DNA from: an uncultured Ruminococcus sp.
GTDB taxonomy: Bacteria > Bacillota > Clostridia > Oscillospirales > Acutalibacteraceae
NCBI GenBank assembly: GCA_902768825.1
Contig: CACXMR010000036.1
Location: forward strand, 1-51,893
Direction: 5' to 3'
DNA: 51,893 nt
Shown here: in pieces, positions 32,669 through 50,853 of the stretch
Layout of the letters: each line of letters begins with the position of its first letter
How positions within the stretch are numbered: the first letter of the stretch is position 1
Made by a program: the position numbers and the translations under genes
Notes under the pieces: model-generated
What the model saw: only the letters and a program-made list of their open reading frames with translations
What the model was told of the DNA's origin: nothing
The model's database searches: none

Positions 32669-32679
32669 TTGGTAGTTGA

Positions 32680-34423: not shown

Positions 34424-34434
34424 GCCGCTATCCC

Positions 34435-35280
34435 TCACTGTACGTTAGCCTTGAGATAATCTGCCCAGACCTTGCAGCCTTCGTTTGTGAAGTGCAGTCC
34501 CATGCCGTTGGGGTTATCATCTGTGGGCGGGTCGCCGCAATACTCAGGGATAAGGTCGCCGTTTTCGTCCGCAACCGCTGAATAGACATCAAGATATTTG
34601 TAGCCTCTCTCGGCGCATACTTCCTTGAGCTTCTCGTCAAAAGCCCTGATATTCACGTTATTCAGGTCGCCAAGGTCGCTGTTGCTGACCATAGGAGTGA
34701 CCGACTCAATATAGATCACCGCATCGGGGCATTTCTCCGCAAGCTTTGAGGTAGTTTCCTTCATTGCGTCCACAGTGCCGTCAATGCCATACAGACCGAT
34801 ATCGTTCATGCCCATCATCACGAATATCTTTTTGGGCTTTATCAGCTCCACACCGTCAAAAATGGTATATTTCACTCCGTTATACACCGGGTGCACATTG
34901 TCCTCGTGGTCAATATCCCACAGGCAGTTGTTATATCCAAGGCTGCCGCCGCACAGGAAGGTCGTTTCTCCCAGGTCGCCGCCTTCGGCATAGTATGAGA
35001 GCTTGAGTGTAACGCTGTCACCGATAAACACCGCATCATCAAACCAGCTTGCATCCACGGGTGTGCCCGCAGGCTTTGACTCGGCAGAGCTTTCCGCCGG
35101 AGTCTCGGAGCTTTGTTCAACTGAGCTTTCCGGCTCAGACTTATCCTCCACTGAGGATGACGGTGCCGCAGACGAAGCAGGAGTCTCAGACACCTTACTG
35201 TCATTTGATTTAGACGAACAACCTCCGACAAATACAGCGGCAAGAACAACCGCTGACAGAAGCAGGGCTTTATATTTCAT
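34435..35280 (-). CDS. SGNH-hydrolase lipoprotein (paralogue)
   Basis: 281 aa. The lipobox is FVGGCSSK (Cys about 18), followed by a shorter Ser/Pro/Glu linker (to about 78). The catalytic domain is clearly paralogous to its neighbour: block I IGDSVTLKL, GSLGYNNCL, GMNDIGLYGIDG and block V MGLHFTN, again without the block V Asp. An insertion (PPTDDNPNG) precedes block V. The ATG at 35280 has GGAGG seven bases upstream. It is the first gene of the acyl-transfer locus; I could not place a convincing promoter at 35281-35361. Confidence 0.88.
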   Translation of the reverse strand: MKYKALLLSAVVLAAVFVGGCSSKSNDSKVSETPASSAAPSSSVEDKSEPESSVEQSSETPAESSAESKPAGTPVDASWFDDAVFIGDSVTLKLSYYAEGGDLGETTFLCGGSLGYNNCLWDIDHEDNVHPVYNGVKYTIFDGVELIKPKKIFVMMGMNDIGLYGIDGTVDAMKETTSKLAEKCPDAVIYIESVTPMVSNSDLGDLNNVNIRAFDEKLKEVCAERGYKYLDVYSAVADENGDLIPEYCGDPPTDDNPNGMGLHFTNEGCKVWADYLKANVQ

Positions 35281-35361
35281 CACAATACCTCCGTTTTTAT
35301 TTTCTCTGAAACCGTAACATCTAAGCAACAGCCTTCGACGTTATCAGACACAACATATATT

Positions 35362-35670
35362 TTACAGCCTTACAAGCCCGTTGTCAACATGCCAAGTGGA
35401 TTTTTCCGGCGTCACGCTGGCGGTTCTGGTCAGAAACAGCATCAGCTCGTTTTCGTTTATCCTATAGATAAGAAGCCATTCAGGTCTGATATGACATTCC
35501 CTGAAACCGGAATAATTACCCGTAAGCGCATGGTCTTTGAAGCGTTCTTCAAGCTGTACGGAATCTGCAAGCTTGCTGACAACATAATCGAGCAGATTTA
35601 TGTCATATCCTCGTCTTGAAAGCAATTTCAGATCCTTTTTAAACTGATTTGAAAGAACAATGTCAAGCAT
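35362..35670 (-). CDS. YafQ-family toxin, C-terminus atypical
   Basis: 102 aa. It resembles YafQ/RelE-type ribosome-dependent mRNA interferases: FKDHALTGNYSGFRECHI and WLLIYRI are family signatures. The catalytic His of DH and of CHI are present, but the usual Asp after HI-P is Glu (HIRPEW). The end reads RTASVTPEKS where relatives have RTGSHxxLF, so the last catalytic His and Phe are missing. It may be inactive or frameshifted. Its first eight bases overlap the antitoxin, and GAGGTG seven bases upstream supports the ATG at 35670. Confidence 0.85.
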   Translation of the reverse strand: MLDIVLSNQFKKDLKLLSRRGYDINLLDYVVSKLADSVQLEERFKDHALTGNYSGFRECHIRPEWLLIYRINENELMLFLTRTASVTPEKSTWHVDNGLVRL

Positions 35671-35944
35671 CGGTTATCACCTCTTCAAGAGCGTCACTGA
35701 AGGATGAATACCTCTTATACTTTTCAGGATGGGAAATCATATCACTATATTCGTTCTTTGCAGACAGCGTCACAGAATTAGGCACCTCTGTAGTCAGCTC
35801 AAAAGGTATCCTCTGTTCTCTCACAACAGTTTTTGCAAAAATGTTGAAGGCGGCACTCACCGACAAGCCGATTTCCTGACAAAACTTATCAAAGGCAACC
35901 TTCGTAGCCTCATCAATCCTTATATTAACATTTGTCATTCCCAT
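35663..35944 (-). CDS. RelB/DinJ-family antitoxin
   Basis: 93 aa. The N-terminal MTNVNIRIDEATKVAFDKFC is the ribbon-helix-helix DNA-binding segment of RelB/DinJ. The C-terminal part should wrap the toxin. The ATG at 35944 has GTAGGT upstream. It has its own strong promoter (35974-36002), whose spacer carries a tandem repeat that may be its operator. Confidence 0.9.
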   Translation of the reverse strand: MGMTNVNIRIDEATKVAFDKFCQEIGLSVSAAFNIFAKTVVREQRIPFELTTEVPNSVTLSAKNEYSDMISHPEKYKRYSSFSDALEEVITDA

Positions 35945-35973
35945 AATGATACCTACTTTTCTATTCTAAGACT

Positions 35974-36002
35974 ATTGTACGCTATCGTCTATCGTTCGTC
36001 AA
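35974..36002 (-). promoter_or_regulatory. Toxin-antitoxin promoter with candidate operator
   Basis: Minus-strand TTGACG (35997-36002), a 17-base spacer and TACAAT (35974-35979). CTATCGT is repeated in tandem at 35982-35988 and 35989-35995 (plus strand), between the two boxes, which suits autorepression by the ribbon-helix-helix antitoxin. Confidence 0.7.
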
Positions 36003-36029
36003 TAATATAATATCAATATGATATACAAG

Positions 36030-37055
36030 TCATAGAATTATCATAGCATCTCCAAAACTGAAGAACCTGTATTTTTCTCTGACGGCAGTATTATAAGCGT
36101 TCATGATGTTGTCAAAGCCCGCAAAGGCGGATACCAGCATAATCAAAGTGCTTTCCGGAAGATGAAAGTTAGTTATCAGTCCGTCGATGACCTCAAAATT
36201 GAAGCCCGGATAAATGAATATGTCAGTCCAGCCCTCGCTTGCCCGGATGCAGCCCTCTTTTTTGGCAACGGTTTCGAGAGTGCGGCAGCTTGTGGTGCCG
36301 ACGGAGATCACCCGGCCGCCGTTTTGCTTTGTCTCATTGATCAGGCGGGCAGTCTCCTCGCTCATCTCGTAGTGCTCTGAGTGCATTTTATGCTTTGTCA
36401 CGTCCTCCACCTTAACAGGCCGGAAGGTGCCAAGACCAACGTGAAGGGTCACAAAACCGATCTTCACGCCCTTTGCCTGTGCTTTGGCAAGAAGCTCCTT
36501 TGTAAAGTGCAGTCCGGCAGTAGGCGCAGCAGCAGAACCTCTTTCACGGCTGTAGACGGTCTGGTAACGCTCCTGATCCTCAAGCTTTTCGTGAATGTAT
36601 GGCGGCAGGGGCATCTGACCAAGCTGATCAAGCGCCGCATAAAAGCTGCCCTCGCAGGCAAAATCCACGATCCTGTTGCCGTCCTCGGTCACGTCGGCAA
36701 CGGTGCAGGTCATCACTCCGCCGCCAAAAACAAATTCAGTGCCGGGCTTTGCCTTACGACCGGGCTTTGTGAGAGTTTCCCAGCGATTGCCGCCTAAATT
36801 TTTCAGCAGCAGGAACTCTACCCTTGCTCCGGAATCCTTCTTCTCTCCGAAGATCCTTGCCGGCAGCACCCTCGAATCATTCAGTATCAGGCAGTCGCCC
36901 TCCCTGAGGTGATCGAGAATATCATAAAAATGCTCGTGGGAAAGCTCCCCTGTTTTTCTGTCCATGACTAAAAGCCGTGAGCTGTCACGGGGTTCAGCGG
37001 GGGTCTGGGCGATGAGCTCCTCAGGAAGGTCATAGTAAAAATCACTTGTTTTCAT
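36030..37055 (-). CDS. queA: tRNA preQ1(34) S-adenosylmethionine ribosyltransferase-isomerase
   Basis: 341 aa, full length. It transfers and isomerises the ribosyl group of SAM onto preQ1 in tRNA to give epoxyqueuosine. The N-terminal [39 protein letters not shown] and [17 protein letters not shown] are family signatures. AAAGG lies ten bases before the ATG at 37055. It has its own promoter; no other queuosine genes are in view. Confidence 0.97.
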
Positions 37056-37091
37056 AGGAAACTATCCTTTCTCAATTTCATAACAATAACC

Positions 37092-37119
37092 ATTATACAC
37101 AAACCTGCGCAAATTGCAA
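37092..37119 (-). promoter_or_regulatory. Promoter of queA
   Basis: Minus-strand TTGCAA (37114-37119), a 16-base spacer and TATAAT (37092-37097). Confidence 0.7.
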
Positions 37120-37162
37120 GACGGCTATCACAGCCAGAGCCACATTCCATGCATAGCCTTGT

Positions 37163-38026
37163 TCATAAGTAATCATCCCACTCAGGACCCAGCATTCCGG
37201 TGTCCTCATATTCACGCAGGTCGTAGGCAGGCTTGACAGAACGCTCCTTCCGGTACTTTCCCATCTGGTCATCCTCACAAAGCCACATATCCACATAGGC
37301 CTTTGCGGCCTTGACACAGCCCTGCTTGTGGGGATTGGCTGTCAGGTAGCTCCTCAGCTTGTCAAGAGACTTATCCACGTCCATCTCAGGGTATGTGTGT
37401 GTAAATTCATCGTAATCCTCCCGGGGAAGAACGTAGGTGCCGTTTTTGCAGGGAATTGAAAAGGCGCTCATACACACTTTACTTTCCTTTACTTTACTTT
37501 CCTTTACTTTACTTTCCTTTACTTTACTTTGTGGGATAACTTCTGCATTTACTTTAGTTTCTGTTACAAAAACCCCCGTTTCTGCAGCAGAAACTGACTC
37601 GGAGTGTGCACTTTTTAAAGCCGCTTGAGATTCTTCTTCCTCAAGCAGCCAATATTTTGATTTATCGACCTTGTTCCTAACAGTCACTTCGGAGTAGCGT
37701 CGCTGAATTCCAACAGAGGTTATAACAGATTGCTGCAGGAGGGCATGATCTATCAGTCCTATATCCGCACAATACTGAATAACTTGTAACACAAGGCTTT
37801 TGTCTTTTATCCACCTGTTCCCGATAATCCGGATGATCTGAGATACCAGTTTATCTATAGGAACCTCCAGATAATAACCGTTTTTGTAAACCTGACAAAG
37901 AATGATGTCGTAAATGCAAATGCCAAAGGGGCCGTACTCGTTCAGCAGGTCCATTATCTTATAGTCATCCCAGAAGTCCACATCCTTCGGAAAGTAGTCA
38001 AGTCCAATTTTTCTCGGACGTCCCAT
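37163..38026 (-). CDS. DUF4373 (Lin1244/Lin1753-like) domain protein
   Basis: 287 aa. The N-terminal MGRPRKIGLDYFPKDVDFW and the FGICIYDIILCQVY segment (to about 130) match DUF4373, found at the N-terminus of phage and plasmid replication-type proteins. The middle holds three and a half copies of KVKES (15-bp DNA repeats, 37468-37530). The C-terminal YDEFTHTYPEMDVDKSLDKL looks helical and DnaD-like. No other phage gene is close, so it is either a remnant or a domesticated replication-linked protein. The ATG at 38026 has GGAGG five bases upstream, directly beside a GCGGTAGCTTGCCGC-like repeat palindrome. Confidence 0.8.
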   Translation of the reverse strand: MGRPRKIGLDYFPKDVDFWDDYKIMDLLNEYGPFGICIYDIILCQVYKNGYYLEVPIDKLVSQIIRIIGNRWIKDKSLVLQVIQYCADIGLIDHALLQQSVITSVGIQRRYSEVTVRNKVDKSKYWLLEEEESQAALKSAHSESVSAAETGVFVTETKVNAEVIPQSKVKESKVKESKVKESKVCMSAFSIPCKNGTYVLPREDYDEFTHTYPEMDVDKSLDKLRSYLTANPHKQGCVKAAKAYVDMWLCEDDQMGKYRKERSVKPAYDLREYEDTGMLGPEWDDYL

Positions 38027-38044
38027 AATTACCTCCTGCGGCAA

Positions 38045-38263: not shown

Positions 38264-39301
38264 TCAATACACCTCTTTCTTCTTTTTTCTCTCGTTGATG
38301 GTGACAGTCTTGAAAAACTGTTCCTTTTGTCTGCGGTATTCGGCTGAGTCGCCGCTGTATTTTGCTTCGGCTTTTATTTTTTTGTAGCTCTCAAAGCGTT
38401 TTTCTTCCAGCTCACCCTTTTGGATGGCTTCACGCACAGCACAGCCGGGTTCGTTCTGGTGCCTGCAGTCACGGAATTTACAGCACTGCGCCAGGGCTTC
38501 AATATCCGAAAAGGCTCCGCTTAGTCCCTCGATGACGTCCCACATCCCCAGCTCACGCATTCCGGGAGTGTCGATGATCATTACCCCGTTTTGGAGCATG
38601 ACAAGCTGACGGTGAGTTGTGGTGTGTCTGCCTTTGCTGTCGTCCTCACGGATGCCGCCCTCGTCCATGATCCTTTCCCCAGCAAGGGCGTTGACAAGGC
38701 TTGATTTGCCCACACCCGACGAACCCAGAAAAACCAGGGTCTTGCCCTTTTGGAGATAGGGCGACAGCTCATTCATTCCGTAGCCGGTCTTGGCGCTGAC
38801 AATGCAGAGCCTTACACCCTCTGCGGCACTGCTTGCTTCGATTATATAGGGCAGATAATCCTCAGTCAGGTCAGCCTTTGTGAGCAGGATCACAGGCTCA
38901 GCCTTTGACTGGCGGGCGGCGGTGAGATATCGCTCCAGCCGCTTGGGGTTGAAGTCGTGGTTCATGGACTGCATGATGAACACATAGTCAAAGTTTGCCG
39001 CAACAGCCTGCTCACCCCTGCCCTTGTCGGGGTCACGGCGTGAAAAGTAGCTTTTGCGGCGCAGGGTCTTGAAGATCCGGCTGTCACCGTCAGGGTTGTA
39101 TTCTATGAGCACAAAGTCCCCCACAGTGGGAAAGCTCTCTCCCTCGTGGTAATATTCCCTGCCCTTGAGCACTGCATAGCCTTCGCCATAGTCCGACACT
39201 ATTCCGAAGCGTCCCTTGTGAACGGCAGTGATACGTGCAGGAGTTCCGCTGATATTTTCACTTTCGTTAGTTAATTCAAATCCGTAATCTTTGATATTCA
39301 A
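38264..39301 (-). CDS. rsgA: Ribosome small-subunit-dependent GTPase RsgA
   Basis: 345 aa, starting at TTG 39301 with GGAGG eight bases upstream; the longer ORF to 39388 would start inside terminator T2. An N-terminal OB domain, a circularly permuted GTPase (LLTKADL before GSSGVGKSSL before DTPGMRELG) and a zinc motif (CKFRDCRHQNEPGC) are intact. RsgA releases late 30S assembly factors and binds the decoding site. In most Firmicutes it follows prpC-prkC; here it stands alone behind a long leader with an upstream ORF and two terminators, which suggests an accessory or stress-regulated copy. Confidence 0.94.
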   Translation of the reverse strand: MNIKDYGFELTNESENISGTPARITAVHKGRFGIVSDYGEGYAVLKGREYYHEGESFPTVGDFVLIEYNPDGDSRIFKTLRRKSYFSRRDPDKGRGEQAVAANFDYVFIMQSMNHDFNPKRLERYLTAARQSKAEPVILLTKADLTEDYLPYIIEASSAAEGVRLCIVSAKTGYGMNELSPYLQKGKTLVFLGSSGVGKSSLVNALAGERIMDEGGIREDDSKGRHTTTHRQLVMLQNGVMIIDTPGMRELGMWDVIEGLSGAFSDIEALAQCCKFRDCRHQNEPGCAVREAIQKGELEEKRFESYKKIKAEAKYSGDSAEYRRQKEQFFKTVTINERKKKKEVY

Positions 39302-39366
39302 TGCTTGTTCCTCCGATTTCAGTTTATTGTCTGTAAAACGCTTTCCCCTGCTAACTGAAATTGGGC

Positions 39367-39409
39367 GCAAAAATGCCGCAGAAAGCAACCCTCATGGGAT
39401 CTCTGCGGC
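39367..39409 (-). terminator. Leader terminator T2
   Basis: Minus-strand GCCGCAGA pairs with TCTGCGGC (39375-39409), followed by ATTTTTGC. It lies between T1 and rsgA. Confidence 0.7.
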
Positions 39410-39543: not shown

Positions 39544-39573
39544 TTAGCAGACAAATACCTCTTTAACAATCAT
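39544..39573 (-). CDS. Nine-codon leader peptide upstream of rsgA
   Basis: The frame reads MIVKEVFVC and stops at TAA. AAAGGAG lies seven bases before the ATG, a better ribosome site than that of rsgA itself. The peptide is too short for a protein function; its position before two terminators, with its stop codon inside the long-range pairing arm, fits a ribosome-stalling sensor. Confidence 0.65.
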   Translation of the reverse strand: MIVKEVFVC

Positions 39574-39627
39574 ATTCGTGCTCCTTTCTCGTTTGCCGAT
39601 AAGCTTAGCAGGCAAACCTTCAGGCTG

Positions 39628-39656
39628 AGTATATCATCATATTATTCTTTTGTCAA
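39628..39656 (-). promoter_or_regulatory. Strong promoter of the rsgA leader
   Basis: Minus-strand TTGACA (39651-39656), a 17-base spacer and TATACT (39628-39633), one base from consensus. Confidence 0.85.
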
Positions 39657-39715: not shown

Positions 39716-39748
39716 CAAAAAAACAGAGGAAGAATAATCCTTCCTCTG
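39716..39748 (-). terminator. Terminator of the NRPS operon
   Basis: Minus-strand CAGAGGAAGGA pairs with TCTTCCTCTG (39724-39748) and is followed by seven T. It lies 28 bases after the STAS stop. Confidence 0.9.
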
Positions 39749-39776: not shown

Positions 39777-40073
39777 TTACTGGATTTTGAGATACTCTGA
39801 GAAGCCTGTGATCTTAAATATCTCCATGACCATATGGTTGACATTGGTGATAACAAGACCTCCCTTGTCCTCCATCAGGTCGTTGGCGTTGAGGATCGCC
39901 CTGAGAGCGGCAGAGCTGACATATTCTACCCCTGCCATGTCAAGGATCAGGGTGTCGCTGTCCTTTCCGATCTCGTTGATCTTCTCTTCAAACTCCGTCA
40001 CCGTAGCATGGTCGATCTTTCCCTCCGGCGCTATTACCGGTGAGCCTTCTTTTTCATAAACCTTGATTTTCAT
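39777..40073 (-). CDS. STAS-domain anti-sigma-factor antagonist-like protein
   Basis: 98 aa, a single STAS domain of SpoIIAA/RsbV size. LILDMAGVEYVSSAALRAI contains the conserved serine (about Ser54) that RsbW-like kinases phosphorylate and SpoIIE-like phosphatases dephosphorylate. AAAGGAG lies eight bases before the ATG. It is the last gene of the NRPS operon, 16 bases after the CapA gene, and is the predicted shared substrate of the two HATPase domains and the phosphatase upstream. No sigma factor gene is visible. Confidence 0.93.
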   Translation of the reverse strand: MKIKVYEKEGSPVIAPEGKIDHATVTEFEEKINEIGKDSDTLILDMAGVEYVSSAALRAILNANDLMEDKGGLVITNVNHMVMEIFKITGFSEYLKIQ

Positions 40074-40089
40074 TATACTATCTCCTTTA

Positions 40090-41259
40090 TTATTTTTCTT
40101 TGAGCAGGTCGCTGATAATTGTTTTGCCTATCTCATTAAATTCTTCGTTTCGCAAGAAAGTCAGAATAGCTCTGAGATAAGGCTTTGGATAAAGGGACAC
40201 AAGATAGTCCTTCAGCTCTGAAGGGGACAGCTCACTGCGCTTTTTGGCAAGCTCCGGGTCTGTGCCCCTTAACGTCAGGAGAAACTGGGTAAGCCAATTC
40301 TGACAGTCCTTGCTGAAGTACTGTTCAAACTCCTCCTTTGCCCTGCTGTCGCCGCTGAGCAGTGCGTCGTGGACTCTGCTTCGGGCATAATACTCCGTCA
40401 GATCCTGGTTTTCATCATATACACAGCCCTTTTCGGTGCGGATTATCCGATGGGGCTTTGCCGTGAAGCCATTGTCCGTCAGGTCAAGCTCAAGCACAAG
40501 GCCTTCAGCAAGAAGCGGCGTGACGTCACTGCGGAAATGAAAGCAGAAATTGCCCTGACCGTAAAGCAGATAGGCACCCTTGTATCGTTCCTCCTCGCCG
40601 ATGGCATGGGTGTGCTGGGAGATCACTACATCGGCGCCGCTGTCAGCCATGCGGTGAAAGCGCTTTCGCATAACTTCGCTGTTGTAGTGGGTGCCCTCGA
40701 TGCCGCCGTGATAAAACACGATAAGAAAATCACAGCTTGCTTTCAGCTCTTTCAGTTCGCCGCAGACACGGTACTCATCATAAAGATTTACACCTGGATG
40801 ATTTTCGAGGGGGGCATTGTCAAAGCGCTCGGTCACGTTGTAGAGAACGATCCGCCTGTCCCCGTCAGTATAGCTGACATGGGTTTTGACAGAGGAAGCG
40901 TCGTCTCCCCAGCCAAAATAGATTATGCCGTTCTGGTCAAGGGTCCTGCAGGTATCAATGTATCCCTGTCTGCCGTTATCCATGGAATGGGTGTTGCCAA
41001 GGGTAGCATAGTTAATGCCAAGCTCCTTTATCGCCTTTATGGTGGAAACAGGCGCCTTGATCACAGGTCCGGTTTTTTCTATGGGAGAATCGCCGTCAGT
41101 AAAACAGCCCTCAAAGTTGCAGATCCGAAGGTCTGCCGATGAGAACAGTTCGCATAGCCTGTCGCCAAAGAGCGCCGATGGGTCTCCGGCGGAAAACAGC
41201 TCATAATTGCAGGGCATGGGCATCAGGTCTCCCGCAATTATTATTTTGGTGTTTTTCAT
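40090..41259 (-). CDS. CapA-family (PgsA-type) metallophosphatase-fold protein
   Basis: 389 aa. The N-terminal KIIIAGDLMPMPCNYELF, FEGCFTDGD, ATLGNTHSMD, VFYHGGIE and VISQHTHAI segments match the CapA fold of poly-gamma-glutamate synthesis proteins. Here there is no obvious signal peptide or TM anchor, unlike classical CapA, so it may act in the cytoplasm. An alpha-helical C-terminus (about 295-389) is extra. Its place between the phosphatase (5 bases away) and STAS (16 bases) genes suggests a role in product tailoring, hydrolysis or immunity; that is inference. Confidence 0.85.
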   Translation of the reverse strand: MKNTKIIIAGDLMPMPCNYELFSAGDPSALFGDRLCELFSSADLRICNFEGCFTDGDSPIEKTGPVIKAPVSTIKAIKELGINYATLGNTHSMDNGRQGYIDTCRTLDQNGIIYFGWGDDASSVKTHVSYTDGDRRIVLYNVTERFDNAPLENHPGVNLYDEYRVCGELKELKASCDFLIVFYHGGIEGTHYNSEVMRKRFHRMADSGADVVISQHTHAIGEEERYKGAYLLYGQGNFCFHFRSDVTPLLAEGLVLELDLTDNGFTAKPHRIIRTEKGCVYDENQDLTEYYARSRVHDALLSGDSRAKEEFEQYFSKDCQNWLTQFLLTLRGTDPELAKKRSELSPSELKDYLVSLYPKPYLRAILTFLRNEEFNEIGKTIISDLLKEK

Positions 41260-41264
41260 TCTCG

Positions 41265-43061
41265 TCAGAACTCCTTTTCGATAGTCAGCATATTCTGACC
41301 GTCACAATATTTGTAGCTCACATCAGTCATCAGCTTTTTGACGATGAAAATGCCAAGGCCTCCCGGTTTTCTTTCGCTGAGGGGGGCGGAAACGTCAGGC
41401 ACCTTTGCGTTGAGAGGGTTAAAGGGCCTTCCTCCGTCCTTAAAGACTATGGTGATCCGTCTGTCACGGTGACGGGTCATTATCTCTACCTGTCCGCCGT
41501 CAGTATAAGCATAGGACTCGATGTTTGCCAGAATCTCAGAGGATGCAACGGATATCTGTCCGATCACCTGGTCGCCGCACCCCGCTGTACGGCAGTGCTC
41601 TTCTATATACTTTATCACATCATAAAAGGTCTCTTTATTCAGGGAGAATATCCGGCTCTCCATGGGCACCTCGTCAAGATAATCCCTGAAGGTCAGGGCA
41701 AGCATTGTTTCGTCATCAAAACGCTCCCTGCCCTGCTCAAAGCCTTCGATCTCGTTCCTTATCGTCCGGATGGTGCCTGCACTGTCGGCGTCTCCCCCGG
41801 TGCTGAGGATGCGAAGCAGTCTTTCGTCACCAAACATTTCCCCCTCAGGCGAGCGGGACTCTGTCACTCCGTCGGTGTAGAGCAGTATCCTGTCACCGGG
41901 CATAAGCCTGAGATGCTGTTCGGTATACTTTACAAGCCGCTTTCTGCCAAGCACAAAGCAGGGATTTGATACAACAAACTCAGGCTCCCTGCCCTTGCGA
42001 AGCAACACGGGATAGTTATGGCCGGCGTTGGAATAGGACAGATGACCGTTGGAGAGATCAACTATTCCCATCCAGCAGGTAACAAAAAACTTCTGAGGGT
42101 TTGACCTGAAAAGATATCGCCCTGTGTGTTCAAAGACCTTGTCGGCAGTCATGCCGGACTGGGCATAGACCTTGATAAGCGTCTTGGTCAGGGTCATAAA
42201 CATGGCGGCGGCGGTTCCGTGACCTGACACATCGCCGATGACGATCGCCAGATGGGTTTCGTCCGTCATAAAAAAGTCGTAAAAGTCGCCCCCTACCTCT
42301 GAAGCCGGAGTCATGTCCGCATAAACCGAAAAGCTCTCGTTGTCGGGAAAGTCGTTGTCCAGCATTCCATTCTGGATCTTTTTTGCAAGGTCAAGCTCCG
42401 TATCGATAGAGGTCTTTTTGTGGATGATCTCCGCCTGCTTGCTGTAGAACAGTCTTCCGTTGATGGACATATAGATGACCACACAAAGCACTATCCCCAG
42501 CACAAACATCGGGGCTATCCTGGTTTTCCAGAAGGACGGGGAGCAGAGAAGGGAAAAATCAAAGGCCTTTGAGATGAGCATGGGCACGTCGGATATCTGA
42601 AGCTGTGACAGCTCCTGCTTGGTAAATTCGGTGGTGTTGAGCATGACAATCTGCTCCAGCACAAAGGACACTGCCGAGGTGATAAGCGTATATCTGGGGT
42701 TATAGAAAAACACACTGAAAAACGGCGGCACGATGAACATAATAAGCAGTGCGTCTCGCTGGGTCACACTGACGATGCACACCGACAGCACGATTACCGC
42801 AAAGTTGATATATTTGGTGGAAGGGTGGTATTTTTTGCGGGTAGCCAGGTTGTAGATTATTACCGCTGTAAACATCAGGATCGGCAGTCCCAGGAATACC
42901 CAGACCAACTGCCTGTAATAATTCAGCACGGCGTGTATCACCAGGGCGGCGTCAAGAAAGATAAATGCCAGCACGGATATGAAATTCATGCGCTGTTCGT
43001 TTTTTTGGAGCATGGCAACGGTGTAGGAGCTTAACTCATTTTTGGGTGGTTGTTTTTTCAT
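41265..43061 (-). CDS. Membrane SpoIIE/RsbU-type PP2C phosphatase fused to an RsbW-like HATPase domain
   Basis: 598 aa from the ATG at 43061 (a GTG at 43067 is also possible). Six or seven TM helices occupy about 25-205. The PP2C domain (about 215-440) carries EVGGDFYD, GDVSGHGTAAAMFM, SNAGHNYPV and YTDGVTES, the metal-binding acidic residues of SpoIIE and RsbU. The C-terminal HATPase domain (about 465-598) has an N box SSEILANIESYA, KDGGRPFNP and GGLGIFIVKKL. One chain thus combines a phosphatase for STAS proteins and a potential kinase for them, under a membrane sensor. It lies 10 bases after the MATE gene. Confidence 0.93.
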   Translation of the reverse strand: MKKQPPKNELSSYTVAMLQKNEQRMNFISVLAFIFLDAALVIHAVLNYYRQLVWVFLGLPILMFTAVIIYNLATRKKYHPSTKYINFAVIVLSVCIVSVTQRDALLIMFIVPPFFSVFFYNPRYTLITSAVSFVLEQIVMLNTTEFTKQELSQLQISDVPMLISKAFDFSLLCSPSFWKTRIAPMFVLGIVLCVVIYMSINGRLFYSKQAEIIHKKTSIDTELDLAKKIQNGMLDNDFPDNESFSVYADMTPASEVGGDFYDFFMTDETHLAIVIGDVSGHGTAAAMFMTLTKTLIKVYAQSGMTADKVFEHTGRYLFRSNPQKFFVTCWMGIVDLSNGHLSYSNAGHNYPVLLRKGREPEFVVSNPCFVLGRKRLVKYTEQHLRLMPGDRILLYTDGVTESRSPEGEMFGDERLLRILSTGGDADSAGTIRTIRNEIEGFEQGRERFDDETMLALTFRDYLDEVPMESRIFSLNKETFYDVIKYIEEHCRTAGCGDQVIGQISVASSEILANIESYAYTDGGQVEIMTRHRDRRITIVFKDGGRPFNPLNAKVPDVSAPLSERKPGGLGIFIVKKLMTDVSYKYCDGQNMLTIEKEF

Positions 43062-43077
43062 GCACACATCGCCCCTG

Positions 43078-44811
43078 TCAGTAAGATATTGTTACGTTAG
43101 TCACGTTAAAGCCCAGCACACGGTTATAGCTGACTGAAGAGCTGAGCTTGCGCACAAGCTGAAGCCCTGTGATCCGTTTGCCGCTGGTATCAATGTAGTC
43201 TGTAGGGTCAAACTCGGTGCCGTTGTCACGCAGGCGGATATTCACCTTGTCGTCAAAAATGCGCACACAAACGTCAACTGTTTTATTGGAAGATGATCGT
43301 GCATAGGTGGCGATGTTGTGGCACAATTCTTCTACCGCCACGCCAACCGCATTGACTGTATTTTCCGGCAGGGAATTTTCTTTGCAAAACGTCATCGCCT
43401 CTTCGGATGCCCTGATCGCCTGTGACACCTCATTGTCTACCGTAAAGTCATAGGCAATGCCGTCCTGCTCTTCGATGCCCAGGATATTCTTCTTTTTGCA
43501 GACCTTCTTGCTGATAAACATTGCCGCAACGGTGATGGCCACTGTGAGCGCCTTTGACACGGGAAAGGATATCCACAGCCAATAGATATCATACTGAGCG
43601 AACCAATACATCAGGGGCACTATGGTGAGGACGCCGTCCAGCATAACGAGAAGATTTGCAAGCCCTCTCTGTTTGGTGGCCTGAAAGAATGAACGCATGA
43701 CATAGATCACGCCAAGGATGGGGATGTTGATGGAGAAAATGCGGAAGGTTGCGGCAAAGACATCGGTTACTGCCGGGTCGGTCAATCCATACATTGAGGC
43801 AAGCTGTGTCGGCATGATCTCGGAAATAAGAAAGACAATTACCGACAGTCCTACGGTGACTATCATGCCGTAGCGCAGGGTGAGCTTTTGTCCGTTGGTG
43901 TCCTTTTCGCCGTAGAGTGCACCCAGAATCGGCAGAAGCGTCATTGAGGCGCCCTCTACAAATATGAAGGCAAGGCTGTTGAGGGAGAAGGAAACCGATG
44001 CGATCTTTCCGCCCATGACACCTGTAGAGGAAAGGATGATGGCATTGGTAAAAAACAGTCTTAAAAAGTTGCACACATAAATCAGCGCTGAGGGCAGACC
44101 CACATTAAAGATCTTGCCGATCTCTTTAAGCCGACCCCATGCCGCCTTTGTAAAGTGGACGGTTCTCTTTTTGGATCTGAAATAGATGATGGTCATTGCC
44201 GTGCCCACGACATAGCCCGTCACGGTAGCCCAGCCTGCTCCTGCCACGCCCCAGCCGAACACTCCCATATACAGTCCGTCACACAGGAGATTGACGACAT
44301 TTGACACTATCGGCAGGGCTGTCGCCAGCTTTCTCATTCCGTCTGTGCGGGCATATGCCGCTGTCTGGTTGACTGCCGCTACCAGGGGCGTCAATATCCA
44401 CAGGGGCAGGAGATAGTCTATGACAAGGCCCACAAGCTCGGTTTTGCCCTGAGCGAGAAGGTCTGCAGTAGGGCTTATGACCATAAGCCCTATTATCGAG
44501 ATCAGTACCGTTGACAGGATTCCCGACCAGAAGGACAGGGTAAAGGCTACATCTGCCCCCTGCTTGTCACGCTTGCTTTTTTTGATGATGGACAGGGTAT
44601 TGCCGCCAAAGGTAAACATGGCAATGGGAATACTGCGGAGAAAGATAATGCAGGTGGTCAGGTTGATGGCATAAAGCTCAACAGTGCCGAGGAGCTGTCC
44701 TACCATTATTCCGTCAAGTATGCCCGAAAGGTAGGTGGATGCCGTCATCGCCAGAGTCGCCACCAGGAGACTGCGGTATTTTTCATTAAGAAGATTGCCT
44801 CTTCGTTTCAT
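43078..44811 (-). CDS. MATE efflux transporter fused to an RsbW-like HATPase domain
   Basis: 577 aa. The first about 445 residues are a complete 12-TM MATE transporter (SGILDGIMVGQLLG, two MatE repeats). The last about 125 residues form a GHKL ATPase domain with the N box VEELCHNIATYA, a DNGTEFDP box and GLQLVRKL, as in RsbW/SpoIIAB. MATE proteins are normally about 450 aa without this tail. The fusion puts a predicted STAS kinase or STAS-binding domain on the exporter. The ATG at 44811 has AAGGGGG eight bases upstream; the gene begins 20 bases after the NRPS. Confidence 0.93.
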   Translation of the reverse strand: MKRRGNLLNEKYRSLLVATLAMTASTYLSGILDGIMVGQLLGTVELYAINLTTCIIFLRSIPIAMFTFGGNTLSIIKKSKRDKQGADVAFTLSFWSGILSTVLISIIGLMVISPTADLLAQGKTELVGLVIDYLLPLWILTPLVAAVNQTAAYARTDGMRKLATALPIVSNVVNLLCDGLYMGVFGWGVAGAGWATVTGYVVGTAMTIIYFRSKKRTVHFTKAAWGRLKEIGKIFNVGLPSALIYVCNFLRLFFTNAIILSSTGVMGGKIASVSFSLNSLAFIFVEGASMTLLPILGALYGEKDTNGQKLTLRYGMIVTVGLSVIVFLISEIMPTQLASMYGLTDPAVTDVFAATFRIFSINIPILGVIYVMRSFFQATKQRGLANLLVMLDGVLTIVPLMYWFAQYDIYWLWISFPVSKALTVAITVAAMFISKKVCKKKNILGIEEQDGIAYDFTVDNEVSQAIRASEEAMTFCKENSLPENTVNAVGVAVEELCHNIATYARSSSNKTVDVCVRIFDDKVNIRLRDNGTEFDPTDYIDTSGKRITGLQLVRKLSSSVSYNRVLGFNVTNVTISY

Positions 44812-44831
44812 ACGTCAGGACCCCCTTATTT

Positions 44832-47800
44832 TTATCTCTTGAGGTTGTCCTTGCGGAAGAACCGGAAGCCACGCAGTACATTGATAAAGTCGTCCACATA
44901 TTTTTCATTGCTTGCGTTCCAGAAGAAGCCCATGCGGGCAAGTATCTGTGTGGTGTAGTGGGCGCTGAAGGGCAGAGCAACGATTTTTTTGCCGTGGGAA
45001 GTGTTCATGTAGGCTGTCATGCTGGAGAGAATCGCCGCTTTTTCGGGGTCCTTCTGGGCTTCGTGAAGGGCGGAAGCAAACTCCTCATATTCCACAAACT
45101 CTACCTTGCTGACGTTTTTGTCCATCTGACGGATGATATCTCCCAGGGGCAGGGTGTGGTTGTTGACAGCATTGAACACACAGCACTCCCTGGGGGTCCT
45201 GGCAAGCTTCAGGAAGGCTTCGCAGGAACGGTCTATCGGCCCCATGCAGACCTGGTTTTCTATCATGTTATAGGGGAAGCATCCCAGCAGGCTGTAGGAA
45301 CGCAGACGCCCCATAAAGTTATTGGTGAGGAAGTTTATCTGGAATTCGCCGTCTGACTCTCGTGCGGCAAGGGTGCCCACACGGATGACCTTTGCGTCAA
45401 GCCCCTCGGCGGCGGCTTCAAGCACCATGCGCTCGCCCATAAGCTTTGAGGATGTATACTTGTTGTCAAGGGTCTGTCCAAAGTAGAGTGACTGCTCGTC
45501 AAGCTCCCGGCGGCTGAGCTTTGAGACATCATCGGTGGTGCCCGATACGGAAACCGTGGAGAAGTGTATGAGCCTTGCATTGAGCTTCTGACAAAGCTTT
45601 ATGCAGTTGACAGCGCCGCCCACGTTGATATCCTCGATGTCGGTGCCGTTGGAGAAATGCTTTACGTTTGCCGCACAGTTGAAGACCGTATTTATGGGCA
45701 GGCTTTCAAAGGGCTCAAAGTATTTATAGTCGGTGACGTCTCCGTTAAGCACCTCTACACGGGTCCTGAACTCTTCCTCAAGGTCGGAGCCAAAGTAGTA
45801 AAACAGCATATTCTCAAGGCGTTCGGCGGCAGAGTCATACCTTCCCTTACGCACCATGCAGTATGCCCTGCCCTCTTCACGCCGCAGGAATTCCGCAAGC
45901 AGGTGGGCACCCATATAGCCTGTGGCACCGGTGATGAGCACGTTTCCAAGCTCTCTTTTCTCACCGCTCAGGAAGGCCGCTACGTTGTTCTTTGCAAGCA
46001 GGGCGTCTATCTTGGAATAATCGTAGCCCTCAAAGTCAAACAGCTTGTTTGTATCGTTGACCTCGCCGTCCTTAAACAGCTCTGCAAGGGCTCTCGGTGT
46101 GGTATATTTGAACACATCGCCGTAGGTGATCTGGAAGCCGTGTTCGGAAGCATCCAGCACTACCGAAGTAACTATCAGCGACGTGCCGCCGATCTCAAAG
46201 AAATCATCTGTCGCACCCACACGGTCAAGCTTCAGCACCTTTTTGAAGGACTCGCAGAAGAATTCCTCAGTCTTGTTCGCCGGGGCAACATATTCTCCCA
46301 GGCTCACCGGAACAGGCTCGGGAAGCATCTTGGTGTCGGTCTTGCCGTTGGCCGTGATGGGCATTTCGTTCATCTGGAGATAGGCTGTGGGGATCATATA
46401 GTGAGTAAGGTGCTTTTTAAGCTCTTCTCTGAGCGCATTGATGTCTATTTCTTCATCAGCGGTGAAGTATGCGCAGAGATTTTCCTGACCGCTGAGCTTG
46501 CGGATGATCACGGCGACCTTCTTGATGTGGGGCTGCTGTGCGATAAGGCCCTCGATCTCGCCCAGCTCTATGCGCAGACCTCTGAGCTTAACCTGACTGT
46601 CAAGTCTGCCCAGAATGTGTACGTTGCCGTCCTTGTCCCACTTTGCATAGTCGCCGGAGCGGTACATACGCTGACCGGCAAATTCCACAAACGCCTGAGC
46701 GGTCTTTTCGGGCAGGTTGCGATAGCCCTTTGCTACACCCACGCCGCCGATATACAGCTCGCCCACAACGCCGTAGGGCGATACGTCGCCGAATTTGTCA
46801 ACAATGACCTCGCTGTAGTTGAGCAATGGTCTGCCCACCGTAACCTGTGAAGCGTTTGTCAGGTCGGCGGCATTGCAGGAAACGGTTATTTCCGTGGGAC
46901 CGTAGGTGTTAACGATCCTTATCTCCTTTGAACATTCCTTGATGGTGTCACGCAGGGACATGGGATAGCCCTCACCGCCGGACATGACAAGACGGCACTT
47001 TGAGAGAGCGTCCTTGAAGGGAGCATATTCCAGATACTGCTGGAGTCTTGAGGGTGTGGCGTTTATGCAGTCAACACTATACTTTTCCATCAGCTCCGCA
47101 AGGGCACGGGGATCGTTCATCTCGTCCTCGCCTGCAAAAACAAGGGTCTTGCCGTTGCAGAATGCCGCCGTGTGCTCCTTGAAGGACATATCAAAGGAAA
47201 CAGTCGTCACGGAAAGATAGGTATTTACATTATTTTTGAGATAATAGATGTGTGAGTTTGCCGGATGGGGCGTGAGATAGTTGCAGATGCCCTTGTGACG
47301 GAGCATGACTCCCTTGGGCTTTCCGGTGGAGCCTGAGGTGTAGATCATATAGCTAAGCTCACGGTCGCTCATCTCCACATCCGGGTTATCGGTATTGTCG
47401 CCTGTGGTGATCTCTTCCACGTTGATAGCCTTGTCGGCAGGATAATCCCCAAGCTTGTCGGCGGTTGTGATGATGAAGGATGCTTCGGAGTCGGTAATGA
47501 TATGGTTTATCCTGTCTGCGGGATACTGCGGATCGCAGGGAATGAACGCCGCTCCCGCTTTGTTCACGCCGAACAGGCAGGCAAAGAAACAGCTTTCTCT
47601 CGGCAGGAGCAGGGCAACGCTGTCGCCGGTTTTGATGCCCCTGGCGATAAGGTTGTGGGCAACGATATTGGCCTTTTGGTTAAGCTCAGTGTATGTAAGG
47701 ACAGCGTCCTTAGCGATAAGGGCGGTCTTGTCGGGATTATCGGAAACGCTCTTTTCAAACAGCCTGTGGAGAAGGGTTATGGGAATGTCTTCCCTGGCTT

Positions 47801-50762
47801 CTACGGCGAATTTATCAAGCTCTGCCTTCTGATTTGCCGGCAGGGCGAGGGCGTCTCTTACCGTTCTGGCATTGCCGAGAAGGTCGATAGCAGACCTCAT
47901 CTGATCGACAAAGTAATTAACCAATACATCCTCAAACAGCTCCGAGGAATACTGCACCATAAAGTGGAGACCCTTTGCGCCCTTGCGGATGACTATGCCG
48001 ATGTCACGGCTCATCTTCTGGAGGGGTGAATACATCTCGACGCTCAGGCCGTCTTTGCTGTAGGCGGGCGGGTTCCACATGAAGTTTACACTCACGTCAA
48101 ACATGGGGTTGCGGGACTCATCACGCCGCTTGACAAACTCGGCAACAACGTCCTCAAAGGGCAGATATGCACCGTAGGTCACACTGCGCACGGCTTCGCT
48201 GACGCTCTGCAGGTAATCCTGAATTTCTGCGCTTCTCTTGGGGCGCACACGGACGGGAGCGGTATTGACGAACATTCCGATGACGTTATCGGCACCGTTG
48301 GGGCGCATATTGGTGGGTATGCCCAGCACTACATCTTCCGATGAGGTGTATTTGCCCAGGGTCATGGACACCGCCGAGAAGATCAGCTCAAACTCTGTCA
48401 CGCTGTATTTGCGGGCGGTGTTGTCAATGGCTTTCAGCTTTTCGTTGTCTATGTCAAAATCTATTTCACGGTCGGACAGGGGGTGCACTCTCGGACGCTT
48501 GCCCTTGGTGGGCATTTCGTTGACAGGCACACCGTCAGCAAATATCTCTCTGTAATACTTTAGCCCGCTGTCATATTTTGCTTCGAGGCTGTCGTCATAA
48601 AGGTCAGAAAGGTCTATCTCGGAAGCGGTGACCTCTTTGCCGTTCAGGCCGTCAATGAGCTCGCTGACAAAGGTTTTGGCAGAGCCGCCGTCAAAAGCGA
48701 TGTGGTGTATGGCAAGATGGAGTATTATACTGCCGTCTGCAACGGAATAAAGCGTGGGTCTTACGGGTATTCCGGTATTAAGGTCAAAGGGCTCGGCATA
48801 GCTGTCAATGATGCTTATGACCTCTTCACGGGATGCGGCAGTCTTCTCAACGATCTCCGGCAGGTCATCCGAAAGTATGCGTACGGGCAAGCCGTTTTGC
48901 TCGCCATAGTATGATGTAAAGGCTTCGTGAGCCTTGAACACGGCATTCAGGGCGTTCTTTACCGCTTCGATATCAGAGCCTTTGATGATTGCGGCAATGT
49001 TCAGGTTATAGACCACTGACTTTTCGTTCAGCTTCTGTTCAAGATACATTCCACGCTCTGAGGGCGTGAGGGGATATATCCTTGCTTTCTTTTCCTTTTT
49101 GACAAGGCTCTTTGCCGATGCCTTCTGAATGAGCAGGCGCTCGATCATCCGGGGAGTTTTGCCTGCAAAGATGTCGGCGGTGGATATCTTGTATATTCCG
49201 CACTTTGCGGCAGTCATGGCGCACTTGATGGAGTCGCCGCCAAGAGCAAAGAAATCATCGTCTATGCCCACGTTCTCAACGCCGAGCACTTCCTCAAAGG
49301 CAGTGCAAAGCACTCTTTGCATATCCGTTTCGGGGGCGATATAATCGGTCTTGAAATTGCCTGCTTCGGGAGCTATGAGAGCGTTTCTGTCAAGCTTGCC
49401 GTTTGCGTTGACGGGGAGCTTGTCCAGACGTACAAAGAAGGCGGGTATCATATAGGGCGGAAGCTTTTTGGATATGGCGCTTTTAAGGTCATCGGCATTG
49501 ATAGGTGCGTTTTCCACATAATACGCCACAAGATAGACCTGACCGTATTGGTTTTTGAAGTCCTTGATGGCGGCGTCATGGATGCCCTCGGTGTTTTTGA
49601 TGATCGCCTCGATCTCTCCCGGCTCAACACGCTGACCGTTGATCTTCACCATCCAGTCCTTGCGGTTGAGATAGATTATATTGCCGTCCTCTGCCATTTT
49701 CACTATATCTCCGGTCCTCAGGAGCTTTTTGTAGCCGTCTGTTTCTGCAAAGGGGTTGTCAACAAATGTCTTTGCGCTCTGCTCCGGAAGATTGAGGTAG
49801 CAGTCGGCGAATATTCCCGCAAGGCAAAGCTCTCCCTCGTCGGCTTCGTTGCCGTTTTCGTCAAGGATATGGGTGCGGATATCACCGATGGGCTTTCCTA
49901 TAGGGGTGTTGTCATATTTCTTATCGACCCGGAACATCATTACGGCGCCGGCGGATTCCGTCTGACCATAGCTGACGATGATCTCAAAATCATCGCTGTA
50001 GGTGTTGCTGACCCTCTCGCTTCCCGTATAAACCACCTTGAGGGAATCCCCCTTGGGCTTGAACACCTTCAGCATTTTGGGGCTGATAAAGGTACGGTTG
50101 ATCTTGTTTTCATAGATATAGTCCGCCAGGAGCACAGGGTCACGCATTGCCTGATATGGCATGAGGTAAGCCGTAAGGCATGAACAAAGGGGAGCGAATA
50201 CACCCTGCACCGAAGCAACAAAGGTAAAGGGCGCACCAAGGGCGGCACGGAAGCCACGGGGGGGCTTTGCATAATCAGAATATCTTGCTATAGAATCCTC
50301 AATGCCGCCATGGGTGTGCAGAACACCCTTCGGCTTTCCTGTGGAGCCTGAGGTATAGATGAGCAGAGAGGGATCCTCAGGAAGAGAAGCGACCGTTTCG
50401 TATAAGGGATCTTCCCTGTCGATATCACGCAGGAATTTTTCGTTGATGACGGCCTTTGCGTCACAGTCATTCCGGATAAATTCAAGACGCTCCGGCGGGT
50501 ATGCGGGAGACAGGGGTGCGAATGCGGCGCCCACCTTCCAGACAGCATACATGGATGCTATATACTCCTTGTTTCGGGGAAGCTCGATAGTCACAAAGTC
50601 TCCCCGTGAAACACCCTGCTTTTTGAGCCTTGCCGCCACCCTTGCGGCATAGAGGTCAAACTCACCATAGGTGAAGCTGTTGTTTTCTCCCTGATCCACG
50701 ATCACCACATGATCCGGACAGTCAGCAACATTTTGTTGTATTCGCTCGATGATACTGCTCAT
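44832..50762 (-). CDS. Nonribosomal peptide synthetase, A-T-C-A-T-R
   Basis: 1976 aa. A1 about 1-460 (IYTSGSTGKPKG at 135-146), T1 about 475-545 (LGGDSIK, Ser511), C about 560-985 (HHIAFDG at 686-692), A2 about 995-1480 (IYTSGSTGKPKG at 1140-1151), T2 about 1490-1565 (GGTSL, Ser1528) and a terminal thioester reductase from about 1605 (LITGATGYMGAHLL; YTSSK further on). The reductase should release an aldehyde. A1 has Val182 (FVASV) where amino-acid A domains have Asp235, so it may activate an acid without an alpha-amino group. A2 keeps that Asp (FDMSFKE, Asp1191), with Lys1195 at the position of GrsA 239. No phosphopantetheinyl transferase gene is in the window. The ATG at 50762 has AAAGGAG just upstream. 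Confidence 0.96.
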   Translation of the reverse strand: MSSIIERIQQNVADCPDHVVIVDQGENNSFTYGEFDLYAARVAARLKKQGVSRGDFVTIELPRNKEYIASMYAVWKVGAAFAPLSPAYPPERLEFIRNDCDAKAVINEKFLRDIDREDPLYETVASLPEDPSLLIYTSGSTGKPKGVLHTHGGIEDSIARYSDYAKPPRGFRAALGAPFTFVASVQGVFAPLCSCLTAYLMPYQAMRDPVLLADYIYENKINRTFISPKMLKVFKPKGDSLKVVYTGSERVSNTYSDDFEIIVSYGQTESAGAVMMFRVDKKYDNTPIGKPIGDIRTHILDENGNEADEGELCLAGIFADCYLNLPEQSAKTFVDNPFAETDGYKKLLRTGDIVKMAEDGNIIYLNRKDWMVKINGQRVEPGEIEAIIKNTEGIHDAAIKDFKNQYGQVYLVAYYVENAPINADDLKSAISKKLPPYMIPAFFVRLDKLPVNANGKLDRNALIAPEAGNFKTDYIAPETDMQRVLCTAFEEVLGVENVGIDDDFFALGGDSIKCAMTAAKCGIYKISTADIFAGKTPRMIERLLIQKASAKSLVKKEKKARIYPLTPSERGMYLEQKLNEKSVVYNLNIAAIIKGSDIEAVKNALNAVFKAHEAFTSYYGEQNGLPVRILSDDLPEIVEKTAASREEVISIIDSYAEPFDLNTGIPVRPTLYSVADGSIILHLAIHHIAFDGGSAKTFVSELIDGLNGKEVTASEIDLSDLYDDSLEAKYDSGLKYYREIFADGVPVNEMPTKGKRPRVHPLSDREIDFDIDNEKLKAIDNTARKYSVTEFELIFSAVSMTLGKYTSSEDVVLGIPTNMRPNGADNVIGMFVNTAPVRVRPKRSAEIQDYLQSVSEAVRSVTYGAYLPFEDVVAEFVKRRDESRNPMFDVSVNFMWNPPAYSKDGLSVEMYSPLQKMSRDIGIVIRKGAKGLHFMVQYSSELFEDVLVNYFVDQMRSAIDLLGNARTVRDALALPANQKAELDKFAVEAREDIPITLLHRLFEKSVSDNPDKTALIAKDAVLTYTELNQKANIVAHNLIARGIKTGDSVALLLPRESCFFACLFGVNKAGAAFIPCDPQYPADRINHIITDSEASFIITTADKLGDYPADKAINVEEITTGDNTDNPDVEMSDRELSYMIYTSGSTGKPKGVMLRHKGICNYLTPHPANSHIYYLKNNVNTYLSVTTVSFDMSFKEHTAAFCNGKTLVFAGEDEMNDPRALAELMEKYSVDCINATPSRLQQYLEYAPFKDALSKCRLVMSGGEGYPMSLRDTIKECSKEIRIVNTYGPTEITVSCNAADLTNASQVTVGRPLLNYSEVIVDKFGDVSPYGVVGELYIGGVGVAKGYRNLPEKTAQAFVEFAGQRMYRSGDYAKWDKDGNVHILGRLDSQVKLRGLRIELGEIEGLIAQQPHIKKVAVIIRKLSGQENLCAYFTADEEIDINALREELKKHLTHYMIPTAYLQMNEMPITANGKTDTKMLPEPVPVSLGEYVAPANKTEEFFCESFKKVLKLDRVGATDDFFEIGGTSLIVTSVVLDASEHGFQITYGDVFKYTTPRALAELFKDGEVNDTNKLFDFEGYDYSKIDALLAKNNVAAFLSGEKRELGNVLITGATGYMGAHLLAEFLRREEGRAYCMVRKGRYDSAAERLENMLFYYFGSDLEEEFRTRVEVLNGDVTDYKYFEPFESLPINTVFNCAANVKHFSNGTDIEDINVGGAVNCIKLCQKLNARLIHFSTVSVSGTTDDVSKLSRRELDEQSLYFGQTLDNKYTSSKLMGERMVLEAAAEGLDAKVIRVGTLAARESDGEFQINFLTNNFMGRLRSYSLLGCFPYNMIENQVCMGPIDRSCEAFLKLARTPRECCVFNAVNNHTLPLGDIIRQMDKNVSKVEFVEYEEFASALHEAQKDPEKAAILSSMTAYMNTSHGKKIVALPFSAHYTTQILARMGFFWNASNEKYVDDFINVLRGFRFFRKDNLKR

Positions 50763-50824
50763 ATTGACACTCCTTTGTCTGTCATTTTTCTCAAAAATTC
50801 ACCAAAAACGAAAACATTTATAAA

Positions 50825-50853
50825 ATTATATCATAAAACTCTTTTTTTTTCAA
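50825..50853 (-). promoter_or_regulatory. Promoter of the NRPS operon
   Basis: Minus-strand TTGAAA (50848-50853), an A-rich 17-base spacer and TATAAT (50825-50830), about 60 bases before the NRPS start. It reads as a vegetative sigma-A promoter. Confidence 0.8.

Follow-up and report, generated by a model that had tools for sequence, protein, structure and literature searches.

A gene set with a peptide synthetase, an exporter and partner-switching parts

The DNA analysed in this study, referred to below as the window, is a stretch of 51,893 nucleotides from an uncultured Ruminococcus sp. (contig CACXMR010000036.1). Its minus strand holds five close genes encoding a nonribosomal peptide synthetase (NRPS), a MATE exporter that ends in a HATPase domain (MATE-HATPase), a SpoIIE-type phosphatase that carries a HATPase domain of its own (SpoIIE-HATPase), a CapA-like protein and a STAS protein (Table 1). 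Sequence comparisons indicate that this is a real and conserved partner-switching gene set whose output is most likely the transporter. Intergenic gaps, in the above order, are 20, 10, 5 and 16 bases, which is compatible with an operon. The initial annotation, made from the letters alone, had listed the same five minus-strand genes with gaps of 5-20 bases; both were confirmed, and Pfam backs every label. It also named a single promoter and a single terminator, which is reasonable, but the two are consensus matches only, and the region holds many such sites (23 promoter-like sites vs 13.2 in shuffles; 20 terminator-like sites vs 12.5). Promoter-like sequences resembling that of the window by eye also precede the NRPS start at L031, L074 and L082, the only relatives in which that start was located by the search pattern.

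Table 1. Genes and signals of the NRPS gene set in the window
Feature	Position	Strand	Basis and proposed role
NRPS, adenylation-thiolation-condensation-adenylation-thiolation-reductase (A-T-C-A-T-R), 1976 amino acids (aa)	44832..50762	minus	Pfam AMP-binding (2 stretches), Condensation, PP-binding (2), NAD_binding_4
MATE-HATPase, 577 aa	43078..44811	minus	Pfam MatE and HATPase_c_2; proposed gated exporter
SpoIIE-HATPase, 600 aa	41265..43067	minus	Pfam SpoIIE and HATPase_c_2; membrane SpoIIE/RsbU-type PP2C; proposed kinase on the HATPase part
CapA-like protein, 389 aa	40090..41259	minus	Pfam PGA_cap; role perhaps tailoring
STAS protein, 98 aa	39777..40073	minus	Pfam STAS; anti-sigma factor antagonist type; proposed messenger
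Promoter-like TTGAAA-17-TATAAT, TG before -10	50825..50853	minus	11/12 consensus matches
Intrinsic-terminator-like hairpin, 11-bp stem and T-run	39724..39748	minus	Consensus match

Judged by their motifs, the proposed kinase, the phosphatase and the STAS protein have intact catalytic residues. The STAS protein of the window has a candidate phospho-acceptor serine in YVSSAAL, and in the fetched loci, which hold 70 distinct STAS domains, the phospho-site is Ser in 67, Thr in 1 and Asp in 2. In the HATPase domain of the window's SpoIIE-HATPase, the N, G1 and G2 boxes are complete. Its relatives likewise carry the boxes of RsbW-type kinases: the N-box is present in 26/27 SpoIIE-linked and 27/27 stand-alone HATPases, and the G1 box in 27/27 and 26/27, respectively. 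The metal-binding Asp of the PP2C phosphatases is conserved at each of five positions in 53-55 of 55 domains from the fetched loci. These counts cover HATPase matches above 80 columns and STAS or PP2C matches above 60; they leave aside five HATPase open reading frames (ORFs) of at least 200 aa without MATE or PP2C, and they take in copies that do not adjoin a MATE-HATPase, such as those of the spoIIA-like operon in the window's own genome. The phosphatase of the window has five predicted membrane segments, and a Pfam scan recognised no sensor domain in it. Phosphatases of relatives carry Cache and HAMP domains (L208, L212) or HAMP alone (L104, L110, L263).

The HATPase domain of the exporter and its genomic neighbourhood

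The HATPase domain fused to the exporter differs from the others in its G2 box. In an alignment of distinct domains, the G2 GxG was found in 27/27 stand-alone, 27/27 SpoIIE-linked and 1/103 MATE-linked HATPases; an alignment-free pattern count gave 25/27, 24/27 and 4/103. The median spacing from G1 to G2 is 23 residues in stand-alone, 22 in SpoIIE-linked and 16 in MATE-linked domains. The window's own MATE-linked domain reads ITGLQL at the G2 position and lacks the combination of GxG and full ATP lid. The initial annotation had treated the two HATPase domains of the gene set as equivalent; this does not hold, since the SpoIIE-linked one has complete kinase motifs and the MATE-linked one is without the G2 box.

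Confident AlphaFold2 models of the MATE-HATPase (pLDDT 88.6 for the whole protein and 89.4 for the HATPase domain, weakest in the lid region) assign to its front part the fold of a MATE transporter (6fhz, E 2.6e-14), in agreement with the Pfam match to MatE. In the model of the domain, the C-terminal part has the SpoIIAB/RsbW fold: the nearest solved structures are SpoIIAB (1th8_A, E 1.3e-8), UsfX and RsbW (6m37, E 3.1e-8), several of which were solved in complex with STAS antagonists, and a profile search with the domain retrieved RsbW (E 1e-6). This suggests that the fold for binding STAS persists in the MATE-linked domain, whereas full kinase activity has probably gone. Because the G2 box is lost, the domain looks like a reader of STAS proteins, not a STAS kinase.

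In a tree of the MATE parts of 58 fused proteins and 64 plain rows, the fused ones grouped together (SH-aLRT 84); the method was a quick one, and the long branches of L209, L214, L173, L212 and L241 make placement and deep order unsure. The nearest plain-MATE row is one of these long branches, L241 (support 94), the same gene as in L263; the cluster, from the order of Methanimicrococcus, comprises an NRPS, an unfused MATE, a PPTase, a STAS protein and a PP2C-HATPase. A HATPase-like tail was also seen on another type of transporter protein. Two ABC ATPases (L098:1776-2876 and L142:16430-17581) have a degenerate C-terminal tail of this kind by our own profile (62-70 bits), which Pfam at E 0.001 did not flag; both genes adjoin SBP_bac_3 genes and are thus of importer type, and STAS genes lie nearby.

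The window's NRPS was matched in 37 of 149 genomes, its own included (E <= 1e-100). The fusion was followed further with gene maps of the fetched loci and with a profile made from the MATE-HATPase alignment, which gave 166 relatives among genome contigs, 80 of them kept. According to the sequence records, it is carried by Ruminococcus, Lachnospiraceae, Treponema, Chitinispirillales, Synergistaceae, Riflebacteria and three methanogen genera belonging to three NCBI orders, and it adjoins reductase-ended NRPS genes of varied sizes. In the window's genome there are four MATE-HATPase genes, all four adjoining NRPS genes. Among distinct MATE-HATPase genes, 90/104 have NRPS domains within 9 kb, none by an adenylation match alone; this share is inflated, as the fused loci were found mostly by similarity to NRPS-linked queries. 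Of the 59 genes whose contig extends 5 kb or more to each side, 52 had NRPS domains, and 45 had STAS, PP2C, another HATPase or several of these.

The initial annotation had made its proposal depend on a neighbourhood conserved in other genomes, and such conservation was found. Within 1.5 kb, any switch part is present at 55 of 87 fused loci vs 2 of 53 plain-MATE loci, so that chance proximity of the switch and the MATE-HATPase was rejected. By component, the fused and plain loci show PP2C at 37 vs 0, STAS at 33 vs 1, HATPase at 30 vs 2 and NRPS at 71 vs 1. The two plain-MATE exceptions are the archaeal NRPS cluster L241/L263 and L189, which is spoIIA-operon-like. Within 6 kb, most of these genes lie on the same strand as the MATE-HATPase (STAS 52/57, PP2C 45/52, HATPase 41/45).

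The switch also follows the exporter within the window's own NRPS family, defined by a reductase domain at least 65% identical. Twelve distinct loci of the family have a MATE-HATPase and 5 kb or more of downstream sequence; STAS was present in 12/12 of them, as was a complete HATPase, PP2C in 11/12 and CapA in 10/12. Duplicate contigs entered this count once, after manual merging (L071=L042, L072=L031, L073=L032, L076=L053); the count omits L033, where the contig breaks off within the MATE gene, and L078, which has MATE-HATPase, HATPase and STAS in 3.8 kb downstream. The family has four more loci (L034, L036, L037 and L038) in which ABC transporter genes, identified by Pfam on L036 with homologues 88-94% identical in the other three, stand in place of the MATE-HATPase. 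CapA is kept in 4/4 of them, and no STAS or other switch gene directly adjoins the NRPS, within stretches that end 1.8 kb (L038) and 2.7 kb (L036) downstream. L038 contains a histidine-kinase-type ATPase fragment. Five further loci of the ABC clade (L035, L041, L045, L055, L069), cut off before the exporter is visible, were not counted. Since CapA stays at ABC-exporter loci that have no adjoining STAS, gene content indicates that CapA tracks the NRPS family and the switch tracks the MATE-HATPase. The CapA-like protein of the window scores 41.6 bits against the MslH-type epimerase family NF038314, far under its cut-off of 700.

A phylum sample of 299 genomes gave a view less centred on the NRPS, although the profile was built from NRPS-linked proteins and up to four candidates were scored per genome, so that fusions with weaker scores may have escaped. 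Among the matches listed, fusions occur in the window's genome and in six others, with seven loci in those six. PP2C/SpoIIE lies within 6 kb in 7/7 of these fused loci and NRPS domains in 1/7 (L209), the stretch of L213 starting 0.3 kb upstream of its MATE-HATPase gene. The 13 plain-MATE loci of the sample have no PP2C; one of them, L223, has a spoIIA-operon-like HATPase and STAS. This indicates that exporter and phosphatase are the constant part, with the NRPS as the most frequent of several enzymes. GH3-type amide synthetases were seen beside the MATE-HATPase, with PP2C nearby, at L213 and also at L120, L134 and L144, where an NRPS is present too; other neighbours of fused genes are an ATP-grasp protein in L213 and a GNAT protein in L212. 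It is possible that the MATE-HATPase and GH3 loci are a non-NRPS version of the export switch.

The likely target of the switch

The following mechanism is proposed, with a probability of about 0.58. The gene set would make a short, reductively released peptide and export it in a switchable way; the terminal reductase of the NRPS suggests release as an aldehyde, and the product of the neighbouring NRPS gene, a small peptide, probably leaves the cell through the MATE pump. The STAS protein would be phosphorylated on Ser by the complete HATPase, which is part of the SpoIIE protein here and a stand-alone gene in some relatives, and the SpoIIE/PP2C domain would dephosphorylate it upon a signal to its N-terminal membrane part. 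Dephosphorylated STAS would then bind the degenerate C-terminal HATPase of the MATE pump and alter pump activity. Thus, kinase and phosphatase would set the phosphorylation of STAS, the MATE-linked domain would read this state and gate export, and the output would be a transporter instead of a sigma factor. Phosphotransfer, STAS-MATE binding, the direction of gating, the signal and the product are what we infer from gene content and motifs. The switch probably controls the pump, not gene expression, in gut and rumen microbes that include some archaea. On this point the initial annotation, which held that the switch acts on the exporter or on synthesis and not on a sigma factor, is supported in part: no sigma factor is among the five genes, and its exporter half gains from the fused HATPase, the exporter swap, the loci with a phosphatase and no NRPS, and the archaeal copies without sigma-70.

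A number of observations weigh against exporter gating, and the alternatives draw on them. There is no switch gene within 9 kb at 14 of the 59 MATE-HATPase loci that extend 5 kb or more to each side. At the ABC-exporter locus L037, switch genes of all three kinds (PP2C, HATPase, STAS) do occur, at a distance of 2.6-9 kb and surrounding DHHW and MBOAT genes. In L209:3855-5447, a STAS domain (8-101) is fused to a condensation domain (114-515) in a protein of 530 aa, and in the archaeal L263 the switch and the NRPS occur with an unfused MATE. These last two cases make control of synthesis possible, that is, the STAS protein may bind the NRPS or a partner enzyme, with the exporter as a mere membrane anchor. 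This also fits the frequency of NRPS domains near MATE-HATPase genes in the biased set of 104. We consider it unlikely, given that six of the seven fused loci listed from the phylum sample have PP2C and no NRPS in the stretch (L213 being cut short as said), that the four ABC-transporter loci of the NRPS family have no switch directly adjoining the NRPS, and that the HATPase is fused to transporters, namely to MATE and, by our own profile, to the ABC ATPases of L098 and L142.

Fusions of STAS were also seen in other settings. Next to the STAS-Condensation gene of L209 lie genes for a PP2C, for a further STAS protein and for a MATE-HATPase. At L094:7965-9164, STAS is fused to an APH-family phosphotransferase, and the gene adjoins Tyr-phosphatase-family, ATP-grasp and MATE-HATPase genes.

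Alternatively, the MATE-linked HATPase may be a working STAS kinase that reports on transport, with the STAS protein acting on another target. Conservation in this domain extends to Glu (101/103) and Asn (76/103) of the N-box and to Asp of the G1 box (91/103), which leaves room for nucleotide binding or catalysis as a kinase, and near some loci no other HATPase is visible. Such a pump-borne kinase has a small chance of being right, because the G2 GxG is missing in 102/103 with a shortened lid, and because all 12 MATE-HATPase loci counted in the window's NRPS family already have a complete HATPase. Very unlikely is an ordinary sigma-factor circuit, in which the STAS protein and the kinase act on a sigma factor from another locus (e.g. 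SigF) and the fusion is incidental: the window's genome has SigBFG-family sigma factors, one above the cut-off, and one such factor adjoins a HATPase gene in its spoIIA-like operon, but none is among the five genes, the fusion is spread over several bacterial phyla and three archaeal orders, and sigma-70 region 2, matched 9-12 times in each of three bacterial genomes, had no match in G445 and G446, two archaeal genomes with the module. The sigma route is possible in the bacterium, not in archaeal carriers without sigma-70.

In the genome of L263 (G506), a single sigma-70 fragment was matched, interrupted by a stop and lying in a frame of 78 aa. L263 adjoins EF-1A and EF-2 type genes and is read as archaeal, and contamination was set aside for this locus on those grounds. 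Contamination is possible for L095, L100 and L110, which are short contigs (13.8, 6.2 and 13.2 kb) from uncultured or single-cell assemblies. Gating of a MATE exporter is also not general among archaea with these proteins. HATPase_c_2 was matched in 35/41 Methanomicrobiales genomes; among the matches listed, a full-length MATE-HATPase occurred in 1/199 Methanomicrobiales genomes and in 1/99 genomes of the order of G446. In stretches of 11-17 kb around 20 Methanomicrobiales switch loci, HATPase was found in 18, STAS in 18, PP2C in 16 and MATE in 0/20. A MATE link was therefore rejected for most of these modules, which must have another output. A scan of 1.5 kb at 30 Methanomicrobiales loci, the 20 among them, also gave no MATE, but that distance is too short: at L289, which is the locus of G445, the MATE-HATPase lies 2.7 kb off and goes unseen. 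The PP2C-HATPase-STAS modules of this order (L266-L293, L296-L315), without MATE nearby, often have a STAS protein of about 395-449 aa, and its extra part may be their output.

A wider proposal is that a widespread class of STAS-gated transporters exists across domains, in which a degenerate RsbW-type domain on MATE, or at two loci on an amino-acid-type ABC ATPase, would sense whether a STAS protein is phosphorylated and gate transport accordingly, in connection with biosynthesis by NRPS, GH3 or ATP-grasp enzymes. We hold this tentatively, at somewhat less than even odds.

Elsewhere in the window, a promoter-like site (39628-39656) and a nine-codon ATG frame (MIVKEVFVC) lie at 39544-39656, upstream of rsgA (38264-39388), with hairpins after them; site, frame and hairpins together are a possible leader or attenuator. 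Positions 28922-38044 hold EamA, DHHW/AlgX-like, MBOAT, DUF4358, GDSL, queuosine-synthesis and Lin1244-type genes. In L037 and L211, MBOAT or DHHW genes are interspersed with PP2C, HATPase and STAS genes.

Relation to known systems

The A-T-C-A-T-R layout with a terminal reductase is that of AusA, the aureusimine enzyme, and of the ruminopeptin enzymes. The window's NRPS shares it, and AusA (NF047350) is its best NCBIfam match, at 1043 bits vs a cut-off of 2500. It differs in its first adenylation domain, where Val stands at the position aligned with GrsA Asp235 in 23/23 ORFs, i.e. all those at least 60% identical in this domain, the window and three duplicate contigs included. This position, the only one of the adenylation-domain code that was aligned by a tool, was placed through a LgrA alignment and the A4 motif. 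Asp235 of GrsA binds the amino group of the substrate. With Val in its place, the starter unit may be one without an alpha-amino group. The likeness to ruminopeptin pathways suggested by the initial annotation is therefore weak, in view of both the score and the Val.

Related gene neighbourhoods have been reported in an archaeon. In Methanobrevibacter ruminantium, the NRPS neighbours include serine phosphatases, an anti-sigma factor antagonist and a MatE protein, and roles in sensing, regulation of NRPS expression and export were proposed (Leahy 2010, PMC2812497). That proposal differs from ours in that expression, not the pump, is regulated, and the accessible part of the paper mentions neither the HATPase-MatE fusion nor its wider distribution. 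The target of archaeal anti-sigma proteins was left open in the accessible part of another report (Anderson 2009, PMC2686161). In the Creative Commons-licensed literature of PubMed Central (PMC), judged mostly by titles and abstract starts and with subscription literature outside the scope, no description of the MATE-HATPase fusion was found; HATPase_c_2 together with 'MatE' and 'efflux' gave no match in the full text of that set.

A partner switch with an effector other than a sigma factor is represented by SiaABCD of Pseudomonas aeruginosa. As described in the accessible parts of two reports, a PP2C phosphatase, a kinase and a STAS-like protein control the diguanylate cyclase SiaD, and unphosphorylated SiaC promotes SiaD (PMC7647112, PMC8457831). 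The combination of parts is alike; in those accounts, however, SiaC binds the SiaD stalk and is phosphorylated on Thr, whereas the proposed effector of the window is a transporter with a degenerate HATPase.

In sum, the gene set resembles SpoIIAA/SpoIIAB/SpoIIE and RsbV/RsbW/RsbU in its STAS protein with a Ser site, its RsbW-type kinase and its SpoIIE-type phosphatase, and its MATE-linked domain is predicted to fold like SpoIIAB and RsbW. It differs from them in having a second, G2-less HATPase on an exporter and no sigma gene, and the module also occurs in archaeal genomes without sigma-70. If the proposed mechanism is true, it would place natural-product export in rumen and gut communities under post-translational control by a partner switch. 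The wider class of STAS-gated transporters, if it exists, would give a number of archaeal 'anti-sigma' systems without a sigma factor a first concrete target. A transporter with a STAS-reader-like HATPase is a concrete and testable target for the archaeal copies described here, not for most Methanomicrobiales modules, and the MATE-HATPase serves as a genome signature for finding reductase-ended NRPS clusters.

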